Source of the DNA: Streptomyces sp. 71268 | GTDB lineage: Bacteria; Actinomycetota; Actinomycetes; Streptomycetales; Streptomycetaceae | Direction: 5' to 3' | DNA length: 64,000 nucleotides | Assembly (NCBI RefSeq): GCF_029392895.1 | Contig: NZ_CP114200.1 | Span: 7,880,501-7,944,500 of the forward strand | Part shown: positions 2 through 44,073 of the stretch, in pieces | How the letters are laid out: each line of letters begins with the position of its first letter | Numbering within the stretch: position 1 is the stretch's first letter | Notes under the pieces: model-generated | Database searches by the model: none | Told to the model about the DNA's origin: nothing | What the model saw: only the letters and a program-made list of their open reading frames with translations | Translations under genes and position numbers: made by a program

Positions 2-1582
2 CGTCAGGGGTTGGCGATGCTGCGTGAGCAGGCCGCTCGCACCCCGAAGGGCCAGTGGGTGCGGGTGGTGGGAGGCTGGTCGGCGGAGCAGTTCGCCGAG
101 CGTCGGCTGCCGACCGTCGCCGAGCTGAACGCCGCCGCCCCGGACACGCCGGTGTTCGTCCTGCACCTGTACCAGTCGGCCGTGTTGAACCGGGCGGCGC
201 TGAAGGCCGCCGGCTTCACCAAGGACACGCCCGACCCCAAGGGAGGGCAGATCGTGCGGGGCCGGGGCGGGGAGCCCACCGGCATGCTGCTGGCCGCGCC
301 CAGCGCCCTCATCCTCTACTCGACCCTGGCCAAGGCGCCGGTGTTGCGGAGTGAGGAGGAGAAGAAGACCTCCACGCGGCATTTCCTGCGCGAGCTGAAC
401 AGGTTCGGGCTCACCTCGGCGATCGACGCCGCCGGCGGATTCCAGAACTTCCCCGACAACTACGCCACCGTCATCGAACTCGCCAAGGCCGGCCAGCTCT
501 CGCTGCGTATCGCCTACCACCTCTTTCCGCAGACTCCGGGGCAGGAGATCGACGATCTCACCCGCTGGGTCGAAACGGCCCGCCCCGGCGACGGGGACGC
601 ATGGCTGCGGCTGAACGGCGCGGGTGAGAACCTCACCTGGTCGGCTGCCGATTTCGAGAACTTCGCCGAGCCGCGTCCGGAACTCGCCCCGGACTACGAG
701 TCGGAGTTCGAGAAGGCGGTGCGCCTGCTCATGGAGAACGGGTGGGGGTTCCGGCTGCACGCCACCTACGACGAGACCATCCGCCGTGACCTCGCGGTGT
801 TCGAGAAGCTCGCCGCGGAAGGGCTCTTCCCGGCTGGGAACCGGTGGCTGTTCGACCACGCGGAGACCGCCTCCGCGGACAGCCTCGACCGTATCGCCGC
901 GCTCGGCGGGGCGATGTCCGTGCAGAACCGACTGTCCTTCCAGGGCGAAGCGTTCCTGCGGCGTTACGGCCCCGGCGCCGCCGCGGACGCCCCGCCGATT
1001 CGCGCCATGCTGGACCGTGGCCTGACCGTGGGCGCCGGCACCGACGCGACCCGGGTCTCCTCCTACAACCCCTGGGTCGCCCTGCACTGGCTCTTCAGCG
1101 GTCGCTCGGTCGGCGACCTGGCGCTGCGCCCGCCGGCGAACCGCGTCGACCGGGGGACCGCGCTGGCGATGTTCACGCGCGCCGGCGCCGCGCTGACCGG
1201 CGAGGACGAGGTCAAGGGCGTCCTCAGGCCGGGCTGTTACGCGGACCTGGCGGTGCTGTCCGAGGACTTCTTCAGCGTGCCCGAGCCGGACATCGCGCAC
1301 ATCGAGTCGCTGCTGACGGTGGCCGGTGGCCGCATCGTGTACGCCGCCGCCGAGTACGAGGGACTCGACGAGGAACTGCCACCCGTCAGCCCCGCGTGGA
1401 GCCCCGTGGCGCACTTCGGCGGTTACCTGGCCTCCCGCCGGACGGCCCGCTCCGGCGCCGACCAGGCGGAGGCACTCGGCCAGGTCGTCGCCGAGTCGGA
1501 GCGGCACCGCCAGTGGCGCGTCGCGCGCGGCCTGGCTCCCGACACCGCGAGCACCCCCTTCGATCCCTGCTTCGACCTGTGA
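2..1582 (+). CDS. Amidohydrolase family protein (YtcJ-like), 5' end outside window
   Basis: The reading frame is open from base 2, so this is the C-terminal ~526 residues of a longer protein whose start lies before the window. Segments typical of YtcJ/LAF3-type metal-dependent amidohydrolases are visible: a HAT segment in the mid-part, FDHAETASADSLDRIAALGG, the serine-glutamine-rich SVQNRLSFQGE stretch, and VGAGTDATRVSSYNPW, whose Asp is the usual metal/catalytic Asp near the end of the barrel. The N-terminal HxH metal motif would be upstream. The C-terminal part (LRPGCYADLAVLSEDFF) is the small beta-sandwich typical of the superfamily. Substrate is unknown; such enzymes hydrolyse C-N bonds of amides or formamides. 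It leads a same-strand run with an isochorismatase-like hydrolase and a DoxX protein, which suggests joint processing of an amide-type compound (inference). Confidence 0.85.
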   Translation, partial: RQGLAMLREQAARTPKGQWVRVVGGWSAEQFAERRLPTVAELNAAAPDTPVFVLHLYQSAVLNRAALKAAGFTKDTPDPKGGQIVRGRGGEPTGMLLAAPSALILYSTLAKAPVLRSEEEKKTSTRHFLRELNRFGLTSAIDAAGGFQNFPDNYATVIELAKAGQLSLRIAYHLFPQTPGQEIDDLTRWVETARPGDGDAWLRLNGAGENLTWSAADFENFAEPRPELAPDYESEFEKAVRLLMENGWGFRLHATYDETIRRDLAVFEKLAAEGLFPAGNRWLFDHAETASADSLDRIAALGGAMSVQNRLSFQGEAFLRRYGPGAAADAPPIRAMLDRGLTVGAGTDATRVSSYNPWVALHWLFSGRSVGDLALRPPANRVDRGTALAMFTRAGAALTGEDEVKGVLRPGCYADLAVLSEDFFSVPEPDIAHIESLLTVAGGRIVYAAAEYEGLDEELPPVSPAWSPVAHFGGYLASRRTARSGADQAEALGQVVAESERHRQWRVARGLAPDTASTPFDPCFDL

Positions 1583-38393: not shown

Positions 38394-40544
38394 CTACGCG
38401 CTGGTCAGGATGACCAGTCGCTGGGTCGCCCGCGTCATCGCCACGTAGCGGTCGACGGCCCCCTCGATGCCGGTGCCGAACGCCTGTGGGTCGACGAGGA
38501 CGACCAGGTCGAACTCCAACCCCTTCGCCAGCTCCGGGGTCAGCGACCGGACGCGGGGCGTGGCCCGGAAGGTGGGGGCGCCGATGACGCAGGCGACGCC
38601 CTCGGCGTGCTCGGCGAGCCAGCCGTCGAGTACCGCGTCCAACTCCGTGACGTGGCCGTGCGTGACGGGGATGCCGCTGGCGCGGATGGACGTCGGCACG
38701 TTGGCGTCCGGGAGCGCGGCCTGGATGACCGGCTCGGCCTCCGCCATGACCTCGGCCGGCGTCCGGTAGTTGATGCTGAGGGACGCCACGTTGATGTGGC
38801 TGAGCCCGAGCCGCTCCAACCGCTCCCGCCACGACTCCGTGAACCCGTGCCGTGCCTGGGCGCGGTCCCCGACGATGGTGAAACTGCGGGACGGGCAGCG
38901 CGCCAGCAGCATGTGCCACTCCGCGTCGGTCAACTCCTGGGCCTCGTCCACGACGACGTGCGCGAACGGGCCGGCGAGCTGGTCCGGGTCGGTGCGGGGC
39001 AGCGCGCTCTGGTCGACCAGGGTGTCCTGGAGGTCCTGGCCGCGCAGCATCGTCACCGCGCCCTCACCGTCGTCCTCGGCCGCGAGCACGTTGTCGATGA
39101 CGTCGGCCATGCGCCGGCGTTCGGCTTCCACGGCGGCCTGGTGGGCGCGCCGGCGCCGCGCCACCTCCGGGTCGCCGAGCCGGTGCCGGGCCGCGTCGAG
39201 GAGCGGCAGGTCGGACAGCGTCCACGCCTGCGGGTCCGCGCGCTGGAGCGCGCGCACCTCGTCCGGGCTGAGCCAGGGAGCGCACTTGCGCAGGTAGGCG
39301 GGGACCGACCACAGGTCGCCGACCAGGTCGGCCGCGTCGATCAGCGGCCACGCGCGCTTGAGGGTGGTGACCAACTCCCGATCCTGCGCGAGCGCCCTGC
39401 GGAACAACTCGGGAGAGACCTCCTCACCCTCGTACTTGTCCCACAGGATCGTGACCAGCTCGTCCCAGACCTGGTCGCGCGCCTCGTTGTGCGGGGTGCC
39501 CGGCTCCGGCGCGTCGAACGCGGCGGCCCAGTCGTCGGGGCCGAGCCAGATCTCCGACCAGGGGGTGGAGACCGTCATCCCGCGGGTGGGTGGCTCCTCG
39601 TAGATGCCGACGGCCGGTTCGATCGCACCCACCATGTCCGCGGTCGACTTCAGCCGGGCCACCGCCGGATCGGCCTCGACCGTCGCGTCGGCGCCCTCGG
39701 TGACCAGGCCTCGCAGGGTGCACGTTCGCACACCCTCCTCACCCAGGCTGGGCAGCACGTCGGCCACGTACGCCAGGTAGGGCTGGTGCGGACCGACGAA
39801 CAACACGCCGCCGCGACGGTGCCCGAGGCGGGGGTCGGAGTACAGCAGGTAGGCGGAGCGGTGCAGGGCGACGACGGTCTTCCCCGTGCCCGGGCCACCG
39901 TCGACCACGAGGGCGCCGCGCGAGCCCGCGCGGATGATGGCGTCCTGGTCGGCCTGGATGGTGCCGAGCACGTCGCGCATGCGGGCCGACCGGTTGCCAC
40001 CCAGGCTGGCGATGAAGGCTGACTGGTCGTCGAGCGCGGCATGGCCGGCGAACCCCTCCGAGGCGAACACCTCGTCCCAGTAGTCCCCGATCCGGCCGTG
40101 GGACCACCGGTACCGGCGGCGGCTGGCCAACCCCATCGGGTTGGCGTGGGTCGCCCCGAAGAAGGGTTCGGCGGCGGGGGAGCGCCAGTCGAGCAGCAGT
40201 TGGCGCCCCGCGCTGTCGGTCAGGCCGAGCCGCCCCACGTACACCGGCTCGGGGTCGTCCGCGCTGACCATGTGTCCCAAACACAGATCCAGGCCGAAGC
40301 GGCGCAGGGCGCGCAGTCGGGCGGTCAACCGGTGGATCTCCGTGTCCCGGTCCATCGCCTCGCGCCCGACGCCACCGGGCGCCCTGCGCTCGGCGTCGAG
40401 TTGGGCGGAGAGTTCGGCGATCGCCTGCTCGAGACAGTCGGCGATGGCCGCGAAGTGCCGCTCGTCGGCGGCGATCAGGGCCGGGTCGGCCTTGGCGGAG
40501 AGGCGGTCGGGAAGGTTGAAGACACTGGTCTTCAGGGGGTGCAC
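38394..40544 (-). CDS. helR: HelR-type RNA polymerase-displacing helicase-like ATPase (rifamycin tolerance)
   Basis: A 716-residue superfamily 1 helicase-like ATPase. The N-terminal coiled coil (about 20-85) precedes GLDLCLGHMVSADDPEPVYVGR and LLLDWRSPAAEPFF, the domain typical of HelD/HelR. Walker A GGPGTGKT is at 216-223; Walker B-like HVVVDEAQELTDAEW and the later helicase motifs INYRTPAEVM and VAMTRATQRLVIL follow. In Streptomyces, HelR removes rifamycin-stalled RNA polymerase from DNA. GTG 40544 has GGAG seven bases upstream. A rifamycin-associated element lies about 385 bases upstream, which strongly supports HelR over general HelD or UvrD. Confidence 0.9.
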   Translation of the reverse strand: MHPLKTSVFNLPDRLSAKADPALIAADERHFAAIADCLEQAIAELSAQLDAERRAPGGVGREAMDRDTEIHRLTARLRALRRFGLDLCLGHMVSADDPEPVYVGRLGLTDSAGRQLLLDWRSPAAEPFFGATHANPMGLASRRRYRWSHGRIGDYWDEVFASEGFAGHAALDDQSAFIASLGGNRSARMRDVLGTIQADQDAIIRAGSRGALVVDGGPGTGKTVVALHRSAYLLYSDPRLGHRRGGVLFVGPHQPYLAYVADVLPSLGEEGVRTCTLRGLVTEGADATVEADPAVARLKSTADMVGAIEPAVGIYEEPPTRGMTVSTPWSEIWLGPDDWAAAFDAPEPGTPHNEARDQVWDELVTILWDKYEGEEVSPELFRRALAQDRELVTTLKRAWPLIDAADLVGDLWSVPAYLRKCAPWLSPDEVRALQRADPQAWTLSDLPLLDAARHRLGDPEVARRRRAHQAAVEAERRRMADVIDNVLAAEDDGEGAVTMLRGQDLQDTLVDQSALPRTDPDQLAGPFAHVVVDEAQELTDAEWHMLLARCPSRSFTIVGDRAQARHGFTESWRERLERLGLSHINVASLSINYRTPAEVMAEAEPVIQAALPDANVPTSIRASGIPVTHGHVTELDAVLDGWLAEHAEGVACVIGAPTFRATPRVRSLTPELAKGLEFDLVVLVDPQAFGTGIEGAVDRYVAMTRATQRLVILTSA

Positions 40545-40920
40545 GGCATGTCTCCGATGTCAGGTTGCTCGCGGCCCGTGGGCGCGCGGTACGACGGGGG
40601 GTTCGCGGTACGACGTGTGGATCGAGGTGGTGGCTGGGTCAGCCCTGGTGAGCGACGTCCCGCCTGATGTGGTCCCGTGGTCCGGGCGGGGTGCCAGGGG
40701 TGGATCTCGTGTTCCGGGCCCGGGTGGGCCACGGATGGCCCGGCGCCCGCGTCACCCCGCGCGGTGTCCGCTCGGACGCGCCCGGCACGGCGCACCGTCG
40801 GTCACGGTGTCACCCTGCTCGCCATCGGGCGCGACCCATGCGTCCCGCCCCCACACCCGTGCCATGTGACTCCCAGATCGTCCGGTTCTTCCTTCGGCGG
40901 GTGATTGTGCAGGACGACCT
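40545..40920 (-). other. Long helR leader region
   Basis: About 375 bases separate helR from the rifamycin-associated element. On the minus strand a possible 37-codon upstream frame runs from ATG 40865 to a stop at 40752 with GGGAG four bases before the ATG (MARVWGRDAW...). A further 6-codon frame (ATG at 40551) overlaps the helR start. No other gene is supported. If transcription starts at the element, helR has an unusually long leader. Confidence 0.4.
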
Positions 40921-40940
40921 GGCCCTTGCCGCAAGCCCCC
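40921..40940. promoter_or_regulatory. Rifamycin-associated element (RAE)
   Basis: On the minus strand this reads GGGGGCTTGCGGCAAGGGCC; its centre CTTGCGGCAAG (40925-40935) is a perfect inverted repeat. It matches, as I remember it, the RAE consensus GGGGCTTGCGGCAAG found upstream of rifamycin-resistance genes in actinomycetes. For helR a weak -10 (CACAAT, 40909-40904) follows with 19-base spacing. On the plus strand the same bases provide TTGCCG (40926-40931), 17 bases before TATACG (40949-40954), a good promoter facing the other way. Confidence 0.8.
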
Positions 40941-40962
40941 CGGTGCGCTATACGTTGAGAGT

Positions 40963-41000
40963 GGAAAGGAGCGGTGACCTCCTTTCCCTTTTCTTTTTCT
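40963..41000 (+). terminator. Intrinsic terminator or attenuator just after a RAE-linked promoter
   Basis: A 9-base-pair perfect stem (GGAAAGGAG 40963-40971, CTCCTTTCC 40979-40987), loop CGGTGAC, followed by CTTTTCTTTTTCT (40988-41000). This is a classical Rho-independent terminator with T-tract, rare in such a GC-rich genome. It begins only about 9 bases after the -10 TATACG, so most transcripts from that promoter would end within ~40 bases. Confidence 0.7.
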
Positions 41001-41236: not shown

Positions 41237-42070
41237 ATGATCCTCGTCGCCGGAGCCACCGGAAACATCGGCAGCCGTCTGTTGGAGGAGTTGCACGCGA
41301 GCGGCGTCGGGCCGTTGCGGGGGCTCACCCGGAGCGCCGCGCGGGCCACCCTTCCCGACGGCATCGCCGTCGTGGAGGCGGACCTCGCGCGCCCGGCGTC
41401 GCTGCGGCCCGCGCTGGAGGGGGTGCGCTCGCTGTTCCTCGTCCCGCATCTGGGCCCGGACGCCGACATCCTGCGGGCCGCCCGGCTGGCGGGTGTGGAG
41501 CACGTGGTGTCGGTCTCCTCCATCACCGTGCGGACCCACCCACACCTGGCCCCCGCCGCCGAGCACCTGGCGGTCGAGCGGCTCCTCCAGGACAGCGGCA
41601 TGGCCTGGACGATCCTGCGGCCGACGCAGTTCGCCTCGAACTCCCTGCTGTGGGCCGACACCATCCGCGAGTCCGGGACCGTGCGCGTGGCGTACGCGGA
41701 CACCGCGCTGCCCACCATCCACCCGGCGGACATCGCCTCGGTGGCCCGGGTAGCCCTGACCGAGCCGGGCCACCATGGCAAGACGTACGAGCTGACGGGC
41801 CCGGCGCCCGTCTCCGCCCGGCAACAGGTGGCGACCATCGCGGCGGCCCTGGGCAGGCAGGTGCCGTTCGCCGAGGTCAGCCGGCGCGAGGCCCGCACGT
41901 GGATGGTCGCGGCCTTCGGCCCCGAGGCCGCGGACGCGGTGCTCGACGTCACGGGCGGTGACGTCACCGACGAGCTGCTCCGCGTCCGGGACACGGTGCC
42001 ACGGCTCACCGGCGCGCCGGGCCGCTCCTTCCAGCAGTGGGTCGCGGAGAACGTGGCCGCGTTCCGCTGA
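41237..42070 (+). CDS. NmrA-like NAD(P)H-binding oxidoreductase
   Basis: A 277-residue atypical short-chain dehydrogenase. The nucleotide loop MILVAGATGNIGSRLLEEL is perfect, followed by RGLTRSAARATLPDG (2'-phosphate-binding Arg region) and VVSVSSITV. It ends without the usual YxxxK catalytic set, typical of the NmrA/azoreductase/quinone-reductase-like branch. PGAPGRSFQQWVAENVAAFR-type C-termini are common to this group. ATG 41237. Controlled by the MerR-type promoter upstream, so probably an inducible stress or xenobiotic response gene. Confidence 0.85.
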   Translation: MILVAGATGNIGSRLLEELHASGVGPLRGLTRSAARATLPDGIAVVEADLARPASLRPALEGVRSLFLVPHLGPDADILRAARLAGVEHVVSVSSITVRTHPHLAPAAEHLAVERLLQDSGMAWTILRPTQFASNSLLWADTIRESGTVRVAYADTALPTIHPADIASVARVALTEPGHHGKTYELTGPAPVSARQQVATIAAALGRQVPFAEVSRREARTWMVAAFGPEAADAVLDVTGGDVTDELLRVRDTVPRLTGAPGRSFQQWVAENVAAFR

Positions 42071-42400: not shown

Positions 42401-42751
42401 ATGAAGTACATGCTGCTGATCAACGCGGGCACGATCGGCGAGGACGGCACGGCGGCCGAATGCACCGTCGAGGACTGGATGAGCTACGACAAGGAGGTCA
42501 GGGACGCGGGGATCTTCGTCTCCGGGGAGTCGCTGGCGGACCTGGTCACCGCCACGGCGGTGCGGGTCGAACCGGACGGCAGGCGCACGATCACCGACGG
42601 GCCGTTCGCGGAGACCCGCGAGGTGCTCGGCGGCTTCTACGTGATCGACGTACCCGACCTGGACGTCGCGCTCGACTGGGCCGCCCGCTGTCCCGGCGCG
42701 CGCGGCAGCGGCTCGGTCGTCGTCCGCCCGATCGCCGACTTCGGCGCCTGA
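42401..42751 (+). CDS. YCII/DGPF domain protein, ECF42 partner
   Basis: A 116-residue single-domain YCII-related protein. The namesake motif appears as ITDGPFAETREVLGGFYVIDVPD, and the start is typical: MKYMLLINAG. DGPF proteins are almost always encoded beside ECF42 sigma factors, as here, and are their regulon members; their enzymatic activity is not known. CAGGAG precedes ATG 42401. The next gene begins two bases after its stop. Confidence 0.92.
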   Translation: MKYMLLINAGTIGEDGTAAECTVEDWMSYDKEVRDAGIFVSGESLADLVTATAVRVEPDGRRTITDGPFAETREVLGGFYVIDVPDLDVALDWAARCPGARGSGSVVVRPIADFGA

Positions 42752-42753
42752 CC

Positions 42754-44073
42754 GTGGGAGACGAGCAGCGTGCCGAGAACGGCACACCAATCGCCACGAC
42801 CCAGCGGTCTGCCGCGCGGGCGTCCGTGGAAGCGGTCTTCCGGGAAGAGCGCGGACGGCTGCTCGCCTCCCTCGTCCGCCGCTTCGGCGACCTCGACCTG
42901 GCCGAGGAGGTCACCTCCGAGGCCGTCGAAGCGGCACTGCTGCACTGGCCGACCGAGAGTGTCCCCACCCGCCCCGGCGCCTGGCTGCTGACCACCGCGC
43001 GGCGCAAGGCCGTCGACCGCCTGCGCCGCGACCAGGCGTACGCGGCCCGGCTTGCCGTTCTGCACGTGGAGGCGGAGCGGGCCGATCCCGCCCCGCCCGC
43101 CGACGCCGACGGGGAGTTGCCCGACGAGCGGTTGCAGATGTTCTTCACCTGTGCCCACCCTGCCCTGGCCGCCGAGGACCGCGTCGCGATCACCCTGCGT
43201 TGCCTGGCCGGCCTGACGACACCCGAGGTCGCGCGGGCCTTCCTGGTGCCGCCCGCGACGATGGCCCAACGGATCGTGCGGGCGAAGAAGAAGATCCGCG
43301 AGGCGCGCATCCCGTTCCGGGTGCCGGGCCCCGACGAACTGCCCGAGCGCCTGCCCGGCGTGCTCCAGGTCATCTACTCGGTCTTCACCGAGGGGTACGC
43401 GGCCAGCTCGGGCCCCGCGTTGCAGCGGCTCGACCTGGCGAGCGAGGCCGTCCGGTTGGCGCGCATCCTGCGCCGACTGCTGCCGGCCGAGCGCGAGGTG
43501 GCCGGCCTGCTCGCGCTGCTGTTGCTGGTCCACGCCCGGCGCGCGGCCAGGACCGGCCCGGACGGCGCGCTCGTCCTCCTCGACGAGCAGGACCGCACGC
43601 GCTGGGACCGGCCGATGATCGAAGAGGGCCGGGACCTGGTGGTGCGCGCGCTGCGAGGCGGGCCGCCCGGACCGTACGGCGTCCAGGCGGCCATCGCCGC
43701 CCTGCACGACGAGGCCGCCGACCTCGCCAGCACCGACTGGTCACAACTGGTGGCGCTCTACGACGTGCTGCTCGCGCTGACGCCGTCCCCCGTGGTGGCG
43801 CTGGGCCGGGCGGTGGCGGTGGCGATGCGCGACGGACCACTGGCGGGCCTGGCGCTGCTCGACGGCCTGGCCGGCGAACGACAGCTCCAGGCGTACCACC
43901 CGTACCAGGCCGCCCGTGGGGACCTGCTGCACCGGCTCGGCCGGCTGCCGGAAGCCGCAGCGGCCTACCGGCGGGCCCTCGCCCTGGCCGGCAGCAAGCC
44001 CGAACACGCCCATCTGCGAGTCAAGTTGAACGCGATCGTGCCATCCGACCCGCCGGACGGAGCCCGGCGATGA
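42754..44073 (+). CDS. ECF42 RNA polymerase sigma factor with long C-terminal extension
   Basis: A 439-residue ECF sigma factor. Region 2 (about 20-95) has VFREERGRLLASLVRRFGDLDLAEEVTSEA and ARRKAVDRLRR; region 4 (about 135-190) has LTTPEVARAFLVPPATMAQRIVRAKKKI. The rest is the ECF42-specific TPR-like extension (YSVFTEGYAASSG, LLLVHARRAARTGPDGALVLLDEQDR, YDVLLALTPSPVVALGRAVAV), which is needed for activity in this group and replaces an anti-sigma factor. The GTG start follows the DGPF stop by two bases and has no strong ribosome site, so translation is probably coupled. Confidence 0.92.
   Translation: MGDEQRAENGTPIATTQRSAARASVEAVFREERGRLLASLVRRFGDLDLAEEVTSEAVEAALLHWPTESVPTRPGAWLLTTARRKAVDRLRRDQAYAARLAVLHVEAERADPAPPADADGELPDERLQMFFTCAHPALAAEDRVAITLRCLAGLTTPEVARAFLVPPATMAQRIVRAKKKIREARIPFRVPGPDELPERLPGVLQVIYSVFTEGYAASSGPALQRLDLASEAVRLARILRRLLPAEREVAGLLALLLLVHARRAARTGPDGALVLLDEQDRTRWDRPMIEEGRDLVVRALRGGPPGPYGVQAAIAALHDEAADLASTDWSQLVALYDVLLALTPSPVVALGRAVAVAMRDGPLAGLALLDGLAGERQLQAYHPYQAARGDLLHRLGRLPEAAAAYRRALALAGSKPEHAHLRVKLNAIVPSDPPDGARR

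Follow-up and report, generated by a model that had tools for sequence, protein, structure and literature searches.

We analysed a window of 64,000 nucleotides from Streptomyces sp. 71268 (contig NZ_CP114200.1 of assembly GCF_029392895.1, positions 7,880,501 to 7,944,500 of the forward strand; coordinates below are those of the window), in which helR, a gene for an RNA polymerase rescue ATPase, is preceded by a rifamycin-associated element (RAE). Comparison with related loci suggests that a larger conserved element is built around the RAE, in which two predicted promoters, P_S (sense, reading into helR) and P_A (antisense, reading away from it), diverge from one palindrome. The locus comprises the following features.

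38394..40544 (-): helR, RNA polymerase recycling/rescue ATPase; 716 amino acids, GTG start; matches NF041254 and Mycobacterium smegmatis HelD
40545..40898 (-): predicted helR leader, long and mostly unconserved; best blastn match over about the first 58 nt only (L118)
40904..40909 (-): predicted P_S -10, CACAAT, with C at -12 and a 19-bp spacer; transcript start predicted near 40898
40921..40939 (-): RAE 19-mer GGGGCTTGCGGCAAGGGCC; 2 of 19 positions off the strict palindrome, same composite in relatives
40925-40935 (-): palindromic core CTTGCGGCAAG inside the RAE, flanked by G and C runs
40929..40934 (-): predicted P_S -35, TTGCGG, inside the RAE; sense -10 at fixed spacing in 153/155 sites
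40926..40931 (+): predicted P_A -35, TTGCCG, inside the RAE, overlapping the sense -35; antisense -10 in 148/155 sites
40951..40956 (+): predicted P_A -10, TACGTT; 19-bp spacer, predicted +1 G at 40963; TANNNT in 94/96 and 54/59 sites
40963..40987 (+): hairpin GGAAAGGAG...CTCCTTTCC from the predicted antisense +1; 45-nt fold of -14.6 kcal/mol, z -2.6 (L017)
40988..41000 (+): T-rich run CTTTTCTTTTTCT behind the hairpin, where a predicted RNA of about 35 nt would have a terminator-like end

The helR gene and its product

The product of helR passed the NCBIfam HelR model NF041254 with 1292 bits against a cut-off of 750, residues 9-714 covering model positions 1-706 of 706 in the profile search. 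It fell below the cut-offs of a second HelR model (419 bits against 1100) and of the HelD models of M. smegmatis (374 against 1051) and Bacillus subtilis (90 against 419). The first-pass annotation of this DNA had correctly recognised a HelD/HelR architecture in the gene at 40544-38394, and had added that the protein alone could be any HelD. The latter statement does not hold, since the protein passed the HelR model by far and stayed below the cut-offs of both HelD models; by its sequence, the product is a full-length HelR proper rather than just any HelD.

The nearest solved relative is HelD of M. smegmatis (chain 6yxu_H, E 7e-99, residues 45-713), and a Walker A motif, GGPGTGKT, lies at residues 216-223, kinship to class II HelD and the ATPase motif both being present. 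The region aligned to M. smegmatis HelD includes the stretch AEDDGEG at 489-495, of which D491, D492, G493, E494 and G495 are invariant among five HelRs; as read by eye, the pairwise alignment sets E484 of the acidic PCh-loop tip of M. smegmatis opposite D492, and D485 opposite G493.

HelR of Streptomyces venezuelae (SVEN_6029) and of Mycobacterium abscessus (MAB_3189c) has been reported to rescue rifamycin-stalled polymerase, with an RAE upstream of the gene (PMC10719064; PMC8655204). The window gene shares with them both the HelR family, by model, and the upstream RAE, and rescue of rifamycin-stalled polymerase, with greater drug sensitivity upon deletion, would be expected here by analogy. 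On the strength of that published work on relatives (PMC10719064; PMC8655204), helR in the window is very probably inducible by rifamycins. The combination of HelR and RAE is already known, and the window pair is one more member.

The RAE and its significance

The RAE palindrome has the form CTTGCSGCAAG. The element reportedly goes back to Spanogiannopoulos et al. 2014 (as cited in PMC10719064), where the same palindrome is said to stand before genes of the rgt, rox, rph, arr and helR types, as it does here. With one mismatch allowed, the core gave 2 matches in the window (both strands of one site) against 0.74 expected, which is not significant, and the 19-mer with up to 3 mismatches gave 13 matches in its own genome against 13 for the reversed control. 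Since it shows no excess over chance on either scale, the core palindrome was ruled out as evidence by itself. Of 197 class genomes, 68 contained the strict palindrome (GGGNCTTGCSGCAAGNCCC, a query picked without regard to flanks) and one contained its reversed control. When the palindrome was combined with both -10 hexamers, centre and arms being left free, this composite was found in 174 of 394 class genomes, the reversed control giving none among the matches listed. The significance lies with the whole element and not with the core alone.

In its own genome the composite occurs three times: before helR, before an rgt-like gene (L001; 689 bits, under the model cut-off of 800) and before a rox-like gene (L002; 772 bits, under the cut-off of 800, its open reading frame (ORF) being cut by the end of the fetched stretch). 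Because the same composite precedes rifamycin-inactivation genes (rgt-, rox-, rph- and arr-like) as well as HelD/HelR genes, the window element is identified by its sequence as a true RAE. The first-pass annotation had reported an RAE-type palindrome upstream on the same strand, between G and C runs and matching the RAE consensus; the palindrome is indeed found there, and the match is borne out by the near-palindromic 19-mer and by the composite before the rifamycin genes of relatives. "Far upstream", as the position was described, is fair for the 376 bp between the 19-mer and the helR start codon, although this distance is not odd for the genus. That reading caught the palindrome and overlooked the -10 hexamers on both sides of it as well as the antisense hairpin.

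Two predicted promoters around one palindrome

The palindrome reads TTGCSG on each strand and thus contains two overlapping, back-to-back -35 hexamers. We compared three sets of sites, which may overlap in species and sum to 155. Set one comprised the 56 of 66 HelR genes from 197 class genomes that have an upstream core at no more than one mismatch. Set two held 40 strict-palindrome sites: at least 75 were present among the matches listed, and after removal of 35 that already belonged to set one, every one of the remaining 40 was read. Set three consisted of the 59 of 80 named HelD loci with a core, mostly from Mycobacterium, Nocardia, Rhodococcus and relatives.

Among the 96 sites of sets one and two, 94 carry an antisense TANNNT at a distance of exactly 15 bases from the core, which gives a 19-bp spacer, and none carries one at any other spacer of 9-29 bp; a sense YANNNT is present at the same 19-bp spacer in 88 of the 96. 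Set three gave the antisense TANNNT at 19 bp in 54 of 59 sites, with one more at 18 bp, and the sense YANNNT in 56 of 59. With any first base allowed, the sense hexamer.A...T (mostly CASAAT) is present in 153 of the 155 sites; the consensus antisense -10 stands at 19 bp in 148, and both hexamers occur together in 148. For M. smegmatis, a sense promoter whose -35 overlaps the RAE has been described (PMC10719064).

The two hexamers differ in their first base, which is T in 149 of 155 sites for the antisense -10, and C in 146, G in 8, A in 1 and T in 0 for the sense -10 (position -12). Across 121 genomes of the genus, the composite with a sense CANNNT was found in 97 and that with a sense TANNNT in none (reversed control 2/121). 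The second and sixth bases of a -10 hexamer are its two key contacts, and in sets one and two these are A and T at 99-100% in both arms; the remaining hexamer bases and the downstream flank are unlike between the arms. A dimer operator would be expected to share more between its arms than two hexamer bases, so that a difference confined to positions outside the key -10 bases favours promoters over a dimer operator.

One-mismatch cores were present at nine of the 155 sites: CTTGCCACAAG at three, CTTGCGTCAAG and CTTGTGGCAAG at two each, and CTTGCGGCGAG and CTTGCCGCCAG at one each. At the seven sites with the first three variants, several of which come from close relatives, the central triplet and with it the dyad centre is broken and TTG is intact on both strands. 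In CTTGCGGCGAG (L223), the antisense -10 and the antisense TTG are lost together and the sense TTG is kept, while CTTGCCGCCAG (L233) looks like a chance core. At a further site (L209) the antisense -10 is lost with the core intact.

We also considered the left block as a sense promoter (TATAGC). This is not favoured because the TATA at 17 bp is lost in some distant families (e.g. L063, L068 and L073) in which the antisense TANNNT at 19 bp stays.

A predicted antisense RNA with a hairpin

In sets one and two, 99% of sites have G at the predicted antisense +1, and in 82% a T precedes it. Folding of 45 nt at 93 of these 96 sites (three were dropped because their flanks were too short) gave a median z of -1.35 at the antisense start, compared with 0.14 for the sense side and -0.01 for a window farther upstream; values below -1.5 occurred at 42/93, 8/93 and 8/92 sites, respectively. 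In a swap test, the first 9 nt paired at 8 or more of 9 positions with their own downstream DNA at 37 of 93 sites, through many different stems, against 330 of 7600 for swapped arms; the sense-side controls gave 1 to 3 of 96 with their own DNA. At roughly 40% of the sites in sets one and two, an antisense RNA from P_A would thus start with a strong hairpin. The hairpin is lineage-dependent and the antisense -10 nearly universal.

The upstream hairpin was also weighed as a terminator of sense transcription, a reading that is not favoured: at the 37 sites with at least 8 pairs, the 8 nt after the hairpin hold 3.9 T in the antisense direction and 2.35 in the sense direction. In the window, the antisense promoter points towards an ORF at 41237-42070 (+) resembling an NAD(P)-binding oxidoreductase by weak model matches, with the hairpin and the T-run lying between.

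Genes behind the element and its distribution

HelR was found in 66 of 197 class genomes and in 81 of 121 genus genomes. At 38 of the 40 set-two sites, the downstream ORF is of rox, rgt, rph, arr or helD type, as judged by N-terminal motif (by eye) or by model. NCBIfam was applied to 19 of the 40, some of these ORFs being cut by the fetched stretch, and 17 matched rifamycin families, 8 of these passing the curated cut-off and 9 falling short of it. Among the latter, L123 and L126 instead pass the model of a general monooxygenase subfamily. L120 scores about equally on three monooxygenase models, and L087, which is partly X, had no NCBIfam match at the E-value used.

The two set-two sites outside the classical rifamycin gene kinds are L095 and L092. 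In L095 (genome G054), a full RAE composite near 1500 stands before a drrA-like ORF at 379-1305 (-), which matches the DrrA-type ABC exporter model TIGR01188 with 338 bits against a cut-off of 312; this is possibly a rifamycin efflux gene, outside the rox/rgt/rph/arr/helR list. In L092 (genome G008), a strict palindrome near 1500 has both -10s off consensus, and the downstream ORF tested is without a Pfam family; the site is perhaps a dead RAE.

In the phylum, the composite matched 22 of 198 genomes, 8 of which belong to other classes (G454, G468, G470, G474, G503, G526, G546 and G551). Its presence beyond the class implies that the element is either old or widely transferred.

Proposed mechanism and alternatives

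In B. subtilis, helD/pps is governed by a convergent dual-promoter rifampicin alarm with 39 bp between the starts, in which the drug is sensed as it arrests polymerase on the busier antisense promoter (PMC12802891). According to the same paper, the convergent pair is not used by all helD genes, and the RAE is named for Actinobacteria. A review states that the RAE is required for rifamycin induction in M. abscessus (PMC10719064), and its mechanism "remains to be elucidated" according to the 2026 paper (PMC12802891). At the sequence level, the locus described here resembles helD/pps in having a strong-looking antisense promoter, a predicted short terminated antisense RNA and, ahead of a gene of the helD type, a sense promoter that looks weaker. 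The B. subtilis pair is convergent, whereas the two conserved promoter-like sequences here do not face each other and diverge from a shared region with overlapping -35s. The antisense TANNNT as against the sense CASAAT, with the hairpin in part of the sites, fits a stronger antisense promoter as far as sequence alone can tell.

We propose that the RAE is probably the shared -35 region, with overlapping hexamers, of two back-to-back promoters with 19-bp spacers standing before a rifamycin-inducible helR. The positions of the hexamers, their spacing, conservation and asymmetry, and the gene content behind them are direct observations; from these we infer two main-sigma-factor promoters, their mutual exclusion and the induction of helR. 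P_A and P_S are predicted promoters, and the action of the drug on the pair is a proposal. P_A, with its consensus-type -10, would in the window and in many relatives give a very short hairpin-ended RNA directed away from helR, and P_S, whose -10 is kept weak at -12, would read into helR. Since the -35s overlap, polymerase could occupy only one promoter at a time, and the consensus -10 would favour the outward promoter, which fits a low basal expression of helR. Without the drug P_A would win and helR would stay low, and with rifamycin the balance would move to P_S. The trigger might be polymerase itself, if the drug arrests it on the busier promoter and it is then removed, or a further factor reading the palindrome. 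We do not propose simple occlusion as a sufficient trigger because it predicts the opposite response, repression by the drug.

A bolder version, which we put forward tentatively and with some doubt, is that the RAE may be a self-contained, polymerase-based rifamycin sensor and not an operator: of two mutually exclusive promoters sharing one palindromic -35, the outward one would act as a drug-sensitive decoy, and the inward one, held weak by its -12 base, would fire only when the drug disturbs the outward one. If this is true, such a sensor is found within and beyond one class, its outward promoter often makes a tiny terminated RNA, and it does with divergent promoters what the B. subtilis alarm does with convergent ones.

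Several points weigh against the shared -35 proposal. A drug-arrested polymerase on P_A should block P_S rather than release it. Induction in B. subtilis was abolished when a 17-bp deletion brought the two promoters into steric exclusion (PMC12802891), and that model is therefore hard to carry over unchanged to the RAE. A second sense start has been placed about 20 bp upstream of the RAE (PMC10719064), close to the predicted antisense start. The outer G and C runs of the palindrome are conserved beyond any -35, as for a protein operator. The hairpin, at 37 of 93 sites of sets one and two, is far from universal, and in the HelD set it is weak (5/52 with own DNA against 72/2422 swapped). P_A at 19 bp is missing from 5 of the 59 HelD sites, where inspection by eye showed one -10 at 18 bp, one with C as its first base and three sites without a P_A -10. 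Finally, no core at up to one mismatch was found in the DNA read upstream of 10 of 66 HelR genes and 21 of 80 HelD genes. For two of the ten coreless HelR genes (L016 and L020), an RAE lies at a greater distance, ahead of an rgt-like gene that precedes helR (called in L139 by N-terminal motif only and in L131 by motif and model), and for another (L067) only 210 bases precede the contig end.

It is conceivable, if somewhat doubtful, that the RAE is instead the operator of a further rifamycin-responsive dimeric regulator covering the sense -35, the antisense -10 and the hairpin being secondary. The 19-bp dyad with its conserved outer G/C runs is consistent with this, as is the finding that deletion of the upstream half abolishes induction in M. 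abscessus (PMC10719064), and a further factor is the published guess (PMC10719064; PMC12802891). However, the dyad is asymmetric beside the core (80% G to its left, equal parts of A and G to its right), seven of the nine core variants break its centre and keep TTG on both strands, and an operator leaves the fixed antisense -10 in 148 of 155 sites unexplained. No regulator gene was noticed beside the loci, though the neighbourhoods were not searched systematically.

A convergent alarm of the B. subtilis type, in which antisense polymerases collide with sense ones until sub-inhibitory drug ends the collisions, is unlikely. The stronger-looking antisense promoter with its terminated short RNA and the weaker-looking sense promoter before a helD-type gene agree with it (cf. 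PMC12802891), but the pair here is divergent and sterically exclusive, and a convergent arrangement needs an extra upstream sense promoter, of which no conserved example was seen by eye in the flanks inspected (no statistical search was made). An ordinary, non-inducible HelD-type gene behind a chance palindrome is highly improbable: the core alone is not rare, but the composite far exceeds its reversed control and precedes rifamycin-gene families.

In the open literature searched, as far as the available parts of these articles extend (including PMC6448022, PMC13246000, PMC10194278 and PMC7283461), an antisense promoter at the RAE is not described, the primary 2014/2022 RAE and HelR papers lying outside that scope. 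Unlike the published RAE, the element here is the centre of a larger one, in which -10 hexamers flank it in both directions at 19 bp and an antisense hairpin is often present, and this suggests that its place within a larger conserved element with a predicted antisense promoter is new. The conserved predicted P_A, a spacer held at 19 bp in either direction and a sense -12 that avoids T would make drug sensing by the RAE directly testable, and they suggest a common logic in two distant bacterial groups, that of an opposing promoter as drug detector.

Spacing, leader and neighbouring genes

Among the 59 RAE-helR pairs listed for the genus, measured from the composite edge to the start of the HelR profile match, 39 are near (53-542 bp, median 111) and 20 lie at 1103-1581 bp. 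The window pair, at 383 on this measure, is the third longest of the near group among those listed, its RAE thus standing farther from the gene than in most near-group relatives. An rgt-like gene lies between the RAE and helR in two other long-spaced cases inspected (L131 and L139). Given these two cases and the long spacing in 20 of the 59 listed pairs, RAE-rgt-helR arrangements may be common in the genus; in the window genome, by contrast, the rgt-like gene and helR are separate, each with its own RAE.

The helR leader was considered as an rgt relic or as a second RAE, and neither was retained: by blastn it shared only about its first 58 nt with another RAE leader (L118, E 2e-4). Further blastn matches to the loci of relatives were weaker, tblastx matches were short and scattered, and the middle of the leader had no good match among 40 relatives. 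Inspection of 40545-40900 by eye showed a possible frame of about 37 codons, with an ATG near 40865 and GGGAG ahead of it. A motif like GGCCGAGGCCA..ACCTGCGGAAA recurs, also by eye, at the predicted start of the sense RNA, for example in L117, L129 and L134. Near helR, with no sign of membership in the system, the window also carries at 42460-44073 (+) an ORF of the sigma-70 family (ECF-like), with DUF6596 and a TPR-like C-terminus.
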